From: Eggerthellaceae bacterium
GTDB lineage: Bacteria; Actinomycetota; Coriobacteriia; Coriobacteriales; Eggerthellaceae
DNA: 41,597 bases
Assembly: GCA_017432445.1 (NCBI GenBank)
Contig: JAFRJC010000093.1
Location: forward strand, 1-41,597
Reading direction: 5' to 3'
The position numbers and the translations under genes were made by a program. This document shows, piece after piece, positions 1 through 29,406 of this stretch (within the stretch, counting starts at the first letter, position 1; each line of letters opens with the position of its first letter). The notes beneath the pieces were generated by a model, which was given only the letters and a program-made list of their open reading frames with translations, ran no database searches and was not told the origin of the DNA.

Positions 1-50
1 CGTTCGTCAGAACGGCTCTTGAAGAGGCGGTGGAGGCAAGGGGGTTTGCG

Positions 51-124
51 CGGCGGCGCGGAGCGCCGCGAAAACGAGTGATAACCGTTTTCAGCGCAAA
101 GGCCCCGGAGCTTTAGCTGCGGGG
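51..124. repeat. Hairpin-rich intergenic element related to the 126-bp repeats
   Basis: Three neighbouring hairpins lie downstream of tmRNA. The first is a GC-rich stem CGGCGC/GCGCCG at about 51-70. The second is AAAACGagtgataacCGTTTT-like at 71-91. The third is CCCCG-GAGCTTTAGCTG-CGGGG at 103-124. The order 'A-tract palindrome, AGCG...GGCC spacer, stem with an AGCTTTAGCT tip' matches the first two hairpins of each 126-bp unit at 26349-26726, although the sequence has diverged. I read it as an old member of the same repeat family. It may help end tmRNA transcription. The first 17 bases of the window also form a small stem (CGTTC-gtca-GAACG) like the one overlapping the rpmA stop codon. Confidence 0.5.
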
Positions 125-152
125 CATTCTCCGCGCCGGAACCACGAATGAC

Positions 153-183: not shown

Positions 184-547
184 TGGTGGAGGCGCGGAGA
201 ATCGAACTCCGGTCCATACTGGATCCCTGGTCAGGCTCTACAAGCTTATTCGCTGTTCTGCTTTAAGGCCAGCTGGGCACAGCGACGCGCGTTGCCGTCC
301 CGAGCCGGTTCGATCTTAGCGCGCGCCATACCGACTACGTGCGCGCGAGCATTTCCCTAAGATGACATCGCACCCAGGGCGGGAAAGCACCTGGGATTGA
401 CGCGCCGACTTATGTTATGCGGCGAGGGCGTACTGCCCAGAAAGATTAGTTTTGCCAATTAATTTGACAGTACCCCTGTTTAACGTGGAAAGGAGACCAC
501 GACCTGCTCCTCACCTCAGACCCACCATGTCGAAACCAGTCGCCCCC
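184..547 (-). ncRNA. ssrA: Transfer-messenger RNA (tmRNA)
   Basis: This RNA rescues stalled ribosomes together with SmpB and tags the unfinished peptide for proteolysis. The 5' end begins GGGGGCGACTGGTTTCGACA at 547. The 3' end has a T-arm with GTTCGATTC and the acceptor strand CGCCTCC followed by ACCA at 184-187. GGGGGCG pairs with CGCCTCC with one G-U, which fixes both ends and gives 364 nt. The CCA is genome-encoded. The tag frame is at 456-415 on this strand: it starts with a GGC (Gly) resume codon and reads GKTNLSGQYALAA before TAA. The tag ends in the usual ALAA degron and its GKTN start resembles the Bacillus-type tag. smpB lies about 850 bp upstream on the same strand and rnr further up, so the trans-translation partners are clustered. 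A promoter candidate lies at 671-700. Confidence 0.96.
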
Positions 548-26178: not shown

Positions 26179-26289
26179 AAACGTTCTCCTTGCTTCATCA
26201 GAACATTTCCAACACGACGGCACGTAAGGGTGTGGACGTACCATCTGTGCCGCGCACACGACGATTTCTCGCTTTTGGCGCAAGAAAGT

Positions 26290-26318
26290 ACTTTACCAGC
26301 GCAAAGGCAGCAAGTCAA
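26290..26318 (-). promoter_or_regulatory. Promoter of rplU-rpmA
   Basis: On the minus strand TTGACT (26313-26318) and TAAAGT (26290-26295) are 17 bp apart, close to consensus, as expected for a ribosomal protein operon. Transcription would start near 26283, giving a leader of about 105 nt that could hold autoregulatory structure; I could not match it to a known L21 leader. Confidence 0.75.
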
Positions 26319-26348
26319 CGCGAAAATATGGGGGTTTCGTGGGGGCTG

Positions 26349-26726
26349 AGCGCCCGAAAAACGGCACAGTGTGCCGTTTTTAGCGAAGCCGGGCAAGCTT
26401 CAGCTTGCCCCCGTGCACACTTCCAGAACTATTTCCCGAATGCGCGAAGCGCAGTCGGGAACAAGACCCCGTATAGCGCCCGAAAAACGGCACAGTGTGT
26501 CGTTTTTAGCGAGGCCGGGCAAGCTTTAGCTTGCCCCCGCGCACACTTCCAGAACCATTCCCCGAATGCGCGAAGCGCAGTCGGGGACAAAGCCCCATGT
26601 AGCGCCCGAAAAACGGCACAGTGTGCCGTTTTTAGCGAGGCCGGGCAAGCTTTAGCTTGCCCCCGCGCACACTTCCAGAACTATTCCCCGAATGCGCGAA
26701 GCGCAGTCGGGGACAAGACCCCATAA
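26349..26726. repeat. Array of three 126-bp hairpin-rich tandem repeats
   Basis: Three head-to-tail units of exactly 126 bp start at 26349, 26475 and 26601 and are about 90-95% identical. Each unit carries three hairpins. H1 is the palindrome AAAAACGGCACA-g-TGTGCCGTTTTT (26357-26381 in unit 1), a bidirectional terminator-like stem. H2 is GGGCAAGCT-tc-AGCTTGCCC (26391-26410). H3 is TTCCCGA-a-TGCGC-gaa-GCGCA-g-TCGGGAA (26433-26461). In H3, unit 1 has T-A where units 2 and 3 have C-G (positions 26434/26460 and equivalents), a compensatory change. The array begins one base after the polA stop and ends 30 bp before the rplU promoter -35, so it separates the two transcription units. Confidence 0.9.
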
Positions 26727-26727
26727 C

Positions 26728-29406
26728 CTAATGTGCTTCTGCCCAGGTGGCGCCGTACGACACGTCCGCGATGAGAGGAACCTTCAATTCGGCGGCAGAC
26801 TCCATGACATCCTTGACCATAGCGCTGAGACGCTCGACTTCGGCAATTGGCACCGAGAAGTCCAGCTCGTCGTGGACCTGCAGCAAGAGCTTCGACTCGA
26901 ATCCCTCGTCCAGCAACCGGCGGGCGACCTCGTTCATGGCCAGCTTGATAATGTCGGCCGCGCTACCCTGCATGGGATGGTTCATGGCCGTGCGCTCCCC
27001 GAATCCACGCTGGACGGCGTTGCGCGCCGCAAGTTCGGGGATATAGCGACGCCTGCCGAACATGGTCTCGGCATAACCGCGTTCCTTAGCTTGCTTGACC
27101 GCATCGTCGAGGTAAGCGCGCACACCTGGATAGGCTTCGAAGTAACGGTCGATCATCTCCTTGGCTTCCGCCATCGAGATCTCGAGGCTCTGCGCCAAGC
27201 CAAACGCCTGCTGACCATACACGATGCCGAAGTTCACAGCCTTGGCACGACTCCTCATCTGGGGCGAGACCTCTTCGACGGGCACGCCGAAAACACGCGC
27301 GGCTGTGCTCGCGTGGAAGTCTGCACCCGAGTTGAACGCTGCAACCAGATGCTCATCGCCCGAAAGATGAGCCAGAAGCCTCAGTTCGATTTGCGAGTAG
27401 TCGGCCGACAAGAACACGTCGTCCTCGCCGATTGCACCAAAGCAGGCGCGGATCTTGCGCCCAAAGTCGGTGCGCACGGGAATGTTCTGCAGATTGGGAT
27501 CGGAGGAGGACAACCTGCCGGTCGCGGTCACCGTCTCGTTGAACGACGTGTGCACGCGCCCATCGTCGTACTTGCGCGCAATGAGCGGAAGCGCGTCTAT
27601 GTAGGTGGACTTGATCTTCGCGAACTCGCGATAATGCAGCACTGTTGCAGGCAGATCGTGTATTTCGGAGAGCTTCTTGAGCACCTGGGCATCGGTGGAA
27701 TAACCCCTCTGGGTCTTTTTACCGTGCGGAAGTCCGAGCACCTCGAACAGGATATGCCCCAGTTGCTTGGGGGAATCGACGTTGAACTCCTCGCCCGCCA
27801 GCTCGTAGATGCGCTCTTTCAGCGCGTCGATTTCCTGTTGCGTGCTCGCCCCCAAATCGGCAAGCGCCTGGGCATCGATCGGCACCCCGTTACGCTCCAT
27901 GACCGCGAGTACGCCCACAAGCGGCAGATCGATCGTGCGATAGACGCCGGCTTCGTCATCTTCGGAGAGCTTCTCCTCCAAGACGCCAGCCAACGCCAGG
28001 ACAACCTGTGCCTGTATCGCCGCACCCTCTTTCTCGTCCTTCGCCTCCGGCATTTCGATATCCAGGTAGTCGGAACACAGGGTTGCAAGCGGATACTTGC
28101 CCGCCGATGAGTTCAGCACATAAGCCGCCAGCGCCACGTCGAAACCGTTTACGGCCAGGACATCAGCCTCTTCGACGAGGGCGCTTTGCGCTGAGTCGCG
28201 CGGGAAGACCTCGTGGACAACCGCCTTGACATCATGCGCTGCGAACGCGCCCTCTTTCACTATGCGAGCGAGCAAATCGAGAGCCCCGTCGCCCTCGACG
28301 ATGCCAACGCGCACTGCGACGCCGGTTTCGTCTGCCGCGTCCTCAGGCTCGTCTGCCTCAACAGCCGCGGCAAGCACGACGTCGCACCCGAACAGCGATT
28401 CCTGAGCGGGCTTGGACACAGCCACAGCTATGCGCTTGCCTTGCTCGAGGGCCTCTTGCACGAGCGCTTCGGCGTCTTCGCCTTCGCACGGTTGCTGAAG
28501 TTCCATCCGAGGCTTCGTAGTGACGCCGGATTCCTGCCCGGCTAGACGCAAGAGCTTCTCGAGATGCGCGCTGAAGCGGATTGCGCCGAACGCTTCGGTT
28601 ACCGCCTGCACGTCGAAGGCGGGCCATGCCACTTCGTCTACATCCAATTCGAAGTCAAGGTCGGTCACGATGGTTGCGATCTTGCGCGAGAGGAAGGCCA
28701 GTTCGCGGTTATCGCGGATGTTCTCAAGCTGCTTTCCCTTGAGCTTGTCGAGATTCTCGTACACACCCTCCATCGAGCCGAACTGAGTCAGCAGCTTCTG
28801 CGCCGACTTAGGCCCGATCCCCGGCACGCCAGGGATGTTGTCAGAGGTGTCGCCCATAAAACCCAGGTAATCGGGAAATTGCTCTGGAGCGATGCCATAT
28901 TTTTCCTGAACGGTCTCAGGATCGTAGATGACGACGTCCGTTATGCCCTTCTTGGTGGTGACGACATGCGTGAGATCGGTGACGAGCTGGTTGACGTCCT
29001 TGTCGCCTGATACAAGTAGAGTCTTGTAGCCGCGCGCCTCGTCGCGCGAGGCAACCGTACCCAGGATGTCGTCGCCTTCCCATCCCTGCACCTTGACGAC
29101 CGGGATGTTCATGGATTCCAGCAGGCTTTCGATTACGGGAAACTGCACGCGCAGCTCGTCGTCCATCGGAGGGCGTTGGGCTTTGTACTGCTCCATCGCC
29201 TCCATGCGAAACTTCGGCTTGCCCGCGTCGAACGCGCATACTATGCCATCGGGCGATGCCACCTCTATGAACTTGAACAGCATGGACATAAAGCCGAACA
29301 CGGCGTTGGTGGGTGTTCCATCAGGCGCGTTCATGGTGGGAGGCACCGCATGGTAGGCTCGGTGCATCAGCGAGTTTCCATCTATGACGGCTATTGTCTT
29401 AGGCAT
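26728..29406 (-). CDS. polA: DNA polymerase I
   Basis: PolA fills gaps and removes RNA primers in replication and repair. The 892-aa protein has an N-terminal 5' nuclease (about 1-290: AVIDGNSLMHRAYHAV, GWEGDDILGTVA, LVSGDKDVNQLV, GDTSDNIPGVPGIGPKSAQKLL), a middle domain (about 300-470) and the polymerase domain: motif A LSADYSQIELRLLAHLSGD, motif B RSKAVNFGIVYGQ-like (RAKAVNFGIVYGQQAFGL) and motif C LLQVHDELDFSVP. The middle domain lacks the DxE pair of the 3'-5' exonuclease (the strand reads IAVAVSKPAQESLFG), so proofreading is probably absent, as in several Gram-positive PolA proteins. AAAGGG is 6 bases before the ATG. A candidate promoter lies at 29499-29528. Confidence 0.97.
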   Translation of the reverse strand: MPKTIAVIDGNSLMHRAYHAVPPTMNAPDGTPTNAVFGFMSMLFKFIEVASPDGIVCAFDAGKPKFRMEAMEQYKAQRPPMDDELRVQFPVIESLLESMNIPVVKVQGWEGDDILGTVASRDEARGYKTLLVSGDKDVNQLVTDLTHVVTTKKGITDVVIYDPETVQEKYGIAPEQFPDYLGFMGDTSDNIPGVPGIGPKSAQKLLTQFGSMEGVYENLDKLKGKQLENIRDNRELAFLSRKIATIVTDLDFELDVDEVAWPAFDVQAVTEAFGAIRFSAHLEKLLRLAGQESGVTTKPRMELQQPCEGEDAEALVQEALEQGKRIAVAVSKPAQESLFGCDVVLAAAVEADEPEDAADETGVAVRVGIVEGDGALDLLARIVKEGAFAAHDVKAVVHEVFPRDSAQSALVEEADVLAVNGFDVALAAYVLNSSAGKYPLATLCSDYLDIEMPEAKDEKEGAAIQAQVVLALAGVLEEKLSEDDEAGVYRTIDLPLVGVLAVMERNGVPIDAQALADLGASTQQEIDALKERIYELAGEEFNVDSPKQLGHILFEVLGLPHGKKTQRGYSTDAQVLKKLSEIHDLPATVLHYREFAKIKSTYIDALPLIARKYDDGRVHTSFNETVTATGRLSSSDPNLQNIPVRTDFGRKIRACFGAIGEDDVFLSADYSQIELRLLAHLSGDEHLVAAFNSGADFHASTAARVFGVPVEEVSPQMRSRAKAVNFGIVYGQQAFGLAQSLEISMAEAKEMIDRYFEAYPGVRAYLDDAVKQAKERGYAETMFGRRRYIPELAARNAVQRGFGERTAMNHPMQGSAADIIKLAMNEVARRLLDEGFESKLLLQVHDELDFSVPIAEVERLSAMVKDVMESAAELKVPLIADVSYGATWAEAH

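Follow-up and report, generated by a model that had tools for sequence, protein, structure and literature searches.

Why would the interval between polA and rplU in a rumen bacterium of the family Eggerthellaceae be filled with three head-to-tail copies of a sequence made largely of hairpins? The interval lies in a contig of 41,597 nucleotides, which was analysed at its full length and which we call the window; the contig belongs to a MAG of 3.17 Mb (96% complete, 4.8% contamination), referred to below as the source MAG. Our answer, to which we assign a probability of roughly two in three, is that the array is made of one small mobile element, here named E, repeated three times in tandem; E would be a non-autonomous hairpin that spreads in trans.

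Tandem Repeats Finder places the array at 26349-26725 with a period of 126, 3.0 copies, 93% matches and no indels, in full agreement with a first-pass annotation of the bare sequence, which had described three 126-bp head-to-tail units. On the plus strand, unit 1 occupies 26349-26474 and is made of the E core (26349-26463) and a right arm, AAGACCCCGTAT (26463-26474); unit 2 occupies 26475-26600 and unit 3 occupies 26601-26725. Model R1, which was built from 20 copies of the element, scores them at 134.2, 133.9 and 138.7 bits, respectively. The spacer that holds the array is bounded by the polA stop codon (26728-26730, minus strand) at one edge and by an rplU promoter-like site (26318-26290, minus strand) at the other. 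The latter has a -35 sequence TTGACT and a -10 sequence TAAAGT and is conserved in congeners. Units 1 and 2 differ at 11 positions, units 1 and 3 at 7, and units 2 and 3 at 6; hence the assembly has not simply copied one unit three times.

The three hairpins per unit that had been noted from the letters are all present. In unit 1 (plus strand), H1 is a palindrome of 25 nt at 26357-26381, with 11 bp and an AGT loop; H2, of 20 nt, reads GGGCAAGC-TTCA-GCTTGCCC at 26391-26410; and H3, a bulged hairpin of 29 nt at 26433-26461, has 7 + 5 bp with a 1x1 bulge. Each is repeated at +126 and +252. The H1 copies of the array have A5/T5 ends, and the one in unit 2 contains a single G-T wobble. H3 bears a compensatory difference, spotted in the first reading and confirmed here, at unit positions 86/112, where unit 1 has T-A and the other two units have C-G. 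T-A is also the commonest state of this pair in the E family (18 of 20 copies). Three things escaped the first reading: a fourth helix, P1, on the left edge; an outer stem that encloses the insertion; and the copies dispersed elsewhere in the genome. P1 is formed in unit 1 by GGCT at 26344-26347 and AGCC at 26387-26390 (plus strand). The layout of E is P1, GAGCGCCCGG, hairpin H1, CAGCGAG, P1' and hairpin H2, with H3 optional in this genus, and its length is about 78-135 bp. The folding energy of a single unit is -54.9 kcal/mol (z = -5.8 against dinucleotide shuffles), and the opposite strand also folds stably (z = -3.8).

It had been suggested that the fold itself is maintained, and this is borne out by many copies, in which pairing is kept with double changes and the paired positions covary. 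Among 20 core copies, 97.4% of the cells in the three stems H1-H3 are paired and 12 pairs are changed on both sides, with a covariation of 0.220 versus at most 0.063 when partners are slid. A second test used 36 distinct heads from several families and included the stems, P1 (4 bp) and two GC pairs in the AGCG/AGCG internal loop. Here 98.2% of pair cells are paired, and double changes are seen at 13 of 17 pairs (118 double-changed cells), counts that are inflated by kinship among copies, although P1 and H1 do vary across families and viral contigs. Covariation in this set is 0.557 versus at most 0.105 with partners slid. Two pairs of P1 show all four Watson-Crick types, and pair 9/43 passes through a series from GC to GU to AU among the copies. 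In the alignment of the 36 copies, the GAGCGCCCGG and CAGCGAG strands are nearly invariant and the sequence of P1 is variable. The fold of E is conserved while its sequence changes. The covariation is equally compatible with RNA and with folded single-stranded DNA, and does not tell one from the other.

The first-pass annotation proposed looking for the 126-bp unit in the rest of the genome and in relatives, and the unit turned out to be dispersed, not confined to one locus. Of the two outcomes that the annotation named as counting against it, a unit restricted to this site and copies that do not covary, neither was observed. The source MAG has E at 11 sites, which are the array and ten other places; nine of these are full matches in a DNA search (78-86% identity), and the tenth (C174) was added by covariance models. 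Since three copies lie at contig ends, more may be lost in assembly gaps. Most dispersed copies are intergenic; they are non-tandem, with core lengths of about 114-117 nt. A DNA search of the genus gave matches in 8 of 15 genomes (source MAG included), one congener having 27, and model R1 found E in 24 of 138 Eggerthellaceae genomes. The named relatives that carry it are mostly rumen or gut MAGs of this family. When the 40-nt head, GAGCGCCCGG-hairpin-CAGCGAG, was sought by itself, 14 of 396 Coriobacteriia genomes had it, some of them from other families or from another order, and one genome had 24 matches; the reversed pattern, used as a control, has 0 matches in these 396. In an even phylum sample the head is otherwise rare (2 of 396 genomes, the source MAG among them). 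Eight viral contigs (IMG/VR) contain it. Named phages gave no match and no plasmid carried the whole array; the plasmids with the head alone were Rhodobacterales and Rhizobiales matches, and among five plasmid records compared, similarity extends beyond the hairpin itself in two Rhodobacter records only. Real, reproducible and structured as it is, the array is but a by-product of local origin; the hairpin family behind it is dispersed and of mobile type.

Two further features of the window may be mentioned here. At 40-130 (plus strand; fold z -4.6) there is a second, divergent copy of E-like type, whose 5' linker contains an additional hairpin; model R2 matches 55-103 with 26 bits and an E-value of 0.0017; it lies about 50 bp past the 3' end of tmRNA (184-547, minus strand). 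Tandem Repeats Finder also reports a 33-bp tandem repeat at 939-1043 (3.2 copies, 75% matches).

How did E come to lie upstream of rplU? In rplU-anchored loci taken from 12 congeners, E is absent upstream of rplU from all spacers read. At one locus (L182) the start-codon pattern was unmatched, and this locus was covered only by genus-wide searches, which put no E there. The promoter-upstream block CACGAAACCCCCATATTT...GTTGACTT is broadly conserved in the congeners. In six of the 12, polA was seen directly preceding rplU; the polA neighbour is itself rearranged in some congeners, and the 12 loci are not all strict empty sites. The outer left arm of the insertion, TATGGGGGTTTCG (26327-26339, plus strand), is within conserved sequence just upstream of the rplU promoter that reads CACGAAACCCCCATATTT on the minus strand. 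The outer right arm, CAAGACCCCATA (26714-26725, plus strand), repeats the left arm imperfectly in inverted form and adjoins the polA stop codon. The right arm of the unit, CAAGACCCC(A/G)TA, is likewise an imperfect inverted copy of the promoter-side TATGGGGGTTTCG. The idea that the outer stem is polA's own terminator was dropped, the left arm being conserved rplU promoter-upstream sequence in congeners.

The borders of the units suggest the order of events. P1 is intact in unit 1 only; in front of units 2 and 3 stands the end of the unit before, and the left strand is missing there, and model R2 gives 73.5 bits to unit 1 and 52 bits to each of the others. Since the left strand of P1 is found in unit 1 only, unit 1 holds the original left border, and since P1 is broken in the other two, the simplest account of the array is a single insertion with tandem duplication afterwards. 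Judging from the comparison of sites, which is one between species and not of a polymorphism within the source species, one E would have entered the polA-rplU promoter interval in this lineage. Tandem multiplication of the segment that runs from AGCG to the right arm would then have given three copies, as the broken P1 implies. At other places tandem arrays combine E with pieces of tRNA-Gly (3 x 126 bp) or with hisF sequence (177 bp), so arrays of E plus flank have formed several times.

Other copies carry traces of insertion in their surroundings. The left and right flanks of 58 copies were compared with each other, with flanks from other copies as the control. Direct repeats with a score of at least 20 are present at 12 of the 58 copies versus 0.17 expected; they are about 20-84 bp long, and none that strong is seen at the remaining copies. 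Inverted arms with a score of at least 14 are present at 16 of the 58 versus 0.68 expected, mainly in this genus, where E sits inside larger hairpins. An exact repeat of 84 bp lies on both sides of E at the apparent end of pyrG (a gene named by eye from its translation), and a 39-bp direct repeat surrounds a copy in the source MAG. At nine sites E has an intact tRNA gene next to it on one side and a partial duplicate of that tRNA on the other. Host sequence would often be left duplicated by the insertion, as direct repeats about 20-84 bp long, many of them at tRNA genes; alternatively, E would come to lie in the loop of a larger hairpin. Both patterns are statistical associations. Replication slippage or recombination could be another source of the long direct repeats, which, long and variable as they are, match no transposase known to us. 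E seems to be mobile within genomes, and its insertions frequently fall in tRNA genes, beside them or within other hairpins.

What are these larger hairpins? An unbiased inverted-repeat scan of 421 kb of the source MAG (loops of at least 12 nt) gave 13 long pairs, of which three are formed inside the array and one is the stem of 5S rRNA; there were none in a shuffled control of 260 kb. Two inner modules recur, G and H, with patterns that match 24 and 13 places in the source MAG, respectively. Module G, GCTGCGAGGAG..GGGAGCGAGGACTGTYTGAG-hairpin-GAGTTCCGCAGCTG..GCGACGAGCGGTTAGC (source MAG, L201:7896-8091, L203:7523-7675 and L210:1085-1252), lies within long locus-specific inverted arms, was seen in 11 of the 15 genomes searched in the genus and, as far as tested, belongs to no Rfam family. 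Module H, GCGATTCTGCAGRCACAAACTT..GGTTAGCCGAAGCCAAGC (source MAG, L211:1791-1891, L209:15203-15317 and L203:15462-15569), also lies within locus-specific arms and occurs in a second genus as well (L095). Outer arms scoring at least 16 surround 43 of 59 G and H copies of the genus versus 0 of 120 control positions. Of 903 copy pairs, only 22 share an 11-mer in their arms; the inner module is conserved, then, but the arms are for the most part specific to their locus. At one orthologous gene end the arms are near-perfect in congener G009, and the same arms in G008 have uncompensated changes. The sequences fit a situation in which the modules would sit in gene-end hairpins whose arms turn over fast.

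E itself occurs within G as well as within H, and relative to G it is seen in either orientation. A more general suggestion can be made, that E, G and H represent an undescribed class of mobile DNA, folded modules that would insert into hairpins (tRNA arms, gene-end hairpins and each other's loops) by a single-strand process leaving either long direct repeats or new locus-specific inverted arms. We offer this only tentatively and regard it as rather doubtful. Some related observations may be recorded. The polA-rplU spacer of G008, one of the six congeners with polA directly before rplU, contains a different hairpin element, and its close relative G009 is without it. This third module, GAGGTYAAGCCAAAGGAGGAGCGARATCCACTTTTC-hairpin-GAAAAGYTAGYTCGCGACGACGACG, is alone in the G008 spacer (L184), and in G007 (L119:1-340) it is directly followed by E, with one pair of arms enclosing both. 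In G013 (L303), the stop codon of the gene matched at 1501-1915 is directly followed by a perfect hairpin, which has arms of about 25 bp but lacks a conserved module; this module-free site is the site of module G in G008 and G009.

Could the array instead have a local task? The first-pass annotation considered that it might stop transcripts in both directions or insulate the ribosomal protein promoter. Its location between the polA stop and the rplU promoter would suit a functional bidirectional terminator or insulator, whose strength is increased by repetition, and so would the A5/T5 ends of H1, which provide a stem and then about five T on both strands, and the intergenic position of most dispersed copies. 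A local role is not borne out, however. A terminator scan had no match in the array, congeners are without E at polA-rplU, the unit is dispersed, and E also abuts partial copies of tRNA genes; a more distant E-like element even sits within an IS5 transposase gene. Moreover, the pairing is kept across copies and the T-tract is not: hardly any copies outside the window have T5 ends, family members mostly having GTTTTC, and some GTTTCC or GTTCTC with compensating partners. We consider a terminator or insulator unlikely. A secondary effect of the array on polA or rplU transcripts is possible, and it would probably be incidental. Still less can be said for the array encoding a 42-residue tandem-repeat peptide, even though 126 is 3 x 42 and a plus-strand frame of 178 codons (26190-26726) is open through the array. 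This ORF runs antisense to rplU from a start within the promoter region of that gene, the differences preserve base pairs, and the dispersed cores of about 114-117 nt are not tandem; we find such a peptide hardly credible. The frame, with its three 42-residue repeats, is a probable source of spurious repeat-protein annotation.

Two other readings take the fold itself as their starting point. E might be a folded RNA, such as an sRNA acting in cis or in trans or a ribozyme-like motif, that is selected for its function as RNA and has spread as a by-product. The GC-GU-AU series at 9/43 and the near-invariant GAGCGCCCGG and CAGCGAG strands do resemble an RNA internal loop, and the fold z of -5.8 also speaks for this reading. 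Yet there is no Rfam match, E is at different locations in different species, and folded DNA that a transposase recognises in a strand-specific manner would covary in the same way; the reverse strand, besides, also folds (z -3.8). An RNA function is improbable in our estimation. Alternatively, E might be an attC-like recombination site or another kind of integrase attachment site, which would account for the tRNA genes and the long direct repeats. Sequences from tRNA 3' parts or D-loops are indeed duplicated on both sides of some E copies, and folded single strands with variable stems are typical of attC sites, which are marked by R/L boxes (GTTRRRY) and go with an IntI integrase. But many copies of E have neither a direct repeat nor a tRNA, and no cassette gene was seen between repeats, and we see little chance that E is such a site.

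If E is a non-autonomous mobile element, as we prefer to think, what moves it? For REPs and TnpA-REP, recognition as a folded single strand is the leading model (PMC8266576). By analogy, E would spread in trans by means of an enzyme that recognises a folded single strand, as REP transposases do, and such recognition is the most plausible mechanism. Y1_Tnp (PF01797) is absent from the source MAG and from four other E-bearing genomes, and E was found at 0 of 20 Y1_Tnp loci of relatives; RAYT (PF01797) as a neighbour of E was rejected, with no association at the loci tested. Reverse transcriptase RVT_1 (PF00078) was also considered as a common factor and rejected, since most of the E-rich genomes in which it was sought do not have it. 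The search for a mobilising enzyme thus yielded none.

Few kinds of bacterial mobile DNA are as poorly explained as small hairpin repeats, among which GTAG REPs are the main group with a known enzyme. E has a sharply defined covarying fold, distantly related hosts and visible insertion footprints at tRNA genes, and it makes the mobilisation of REP-like repeats without RAYT testable by setting gene content against copy number. Its arrays also carry a warning about spurious repeated ORFs and broken assemblies, three copies lying at contig ends.

How does E compare with known systems? No named family had been recognised in the first reading, and database and literature searches agree. None of the 4227 Rfam families matched above gathering, and relaxed thresholds gave weak chance matches only; searches of open-licence papers by sequence string and by topic found no description of the E family. 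GTAG-tagged REPs, which go with RAYT/TnpA-REP, are short, dispersed, mostly intergenic palindromes with covarying stems (Di Nocera 2013 PMC3733652; PMC8266576). E is like them in being a dispersed palindrome with a covarying stem in many copies, present as singles and in clusters that are sometimes reiterated with flanking DNA. Unlike them, it has no conserved GTAG tetranucleotide by the hairpin (36 copies), is longer, with two or three hairpins and the closing helix P1, and is absent from the flanks of 20 Y1_Tnp genes, the source MAG having no Y1_Tnp. CGTC REPs, among them Neisseria dRS3 and alphaproteobacterial REPs, have a CGTC tag, a stem of 8-9 bp starting with A-T and a CCA tail (PMC3733652). 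They too are dispersed hairpins with no dedicated transposase known; the stem of E, however, is 11 bp, there are no CGTC/CCA ends, and GAGCGCCCGG and CAGCGAG are near-invariant. With BOX, ERIC, RUP and MITEs E shares a modular, dispersed, hairpin-forming, intergenic nature (PMC2229807, PMC3049150). It differs from MITEs in having no conserved terminal inverted repeats, the borders sharing only the short and sequence-variable P1, and no short target duplication of fixed length, with repeats of about 20-84 bp at 12 of 58 copies. In contrast to all four, the outer arms of its host hairpins differ from locus to locus. Tandemly repeated modules are also known in BOX. Intrinsic terminators have a G+C-rich stem and a conserved T-run, a combination that E does not show.

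A further likeness is found in Rhodobacterales, where an E-like element of Rhodobacter capsulatus pRCB133 and Rhodobacter sp. CZR27 scores 44-48 bits with model R2. It has GCGCCCGG, a hairpin with an AAAAC stem and CAGC, followed by a short GGGC/GCCC hairpin; it differs in its P1 region (GTGAAGGG / CAGCCCTGAA), and no long target duplication is seen. Common descent with E is plausible. An IS5 transposase gene that Celeribacter and Paracoccus have in one piece is split in Rhodobacter sp. CZR27 by this element, of about 58 bp, so such hairpins can insert as discrete units. On a plasmid of the same strain (L216:1-1897), a perfect inverted repeat of 660 bp flanks a BLUF-domain gene; the repeat is two IS5-like copies, each with two hairpin insertions. 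Orthologous presence and absence, as expected of mobile elements, is seen at the polA-rplU spacers of congeners and at the Rhodobacter IS5 gene, the two sites on which this comparison rests. Our verdict is that E is a new REP-like family of mobile hairpins, which stands outside the criteria tested for GTAG and CGTC REPs, MITEs and Rfam families.
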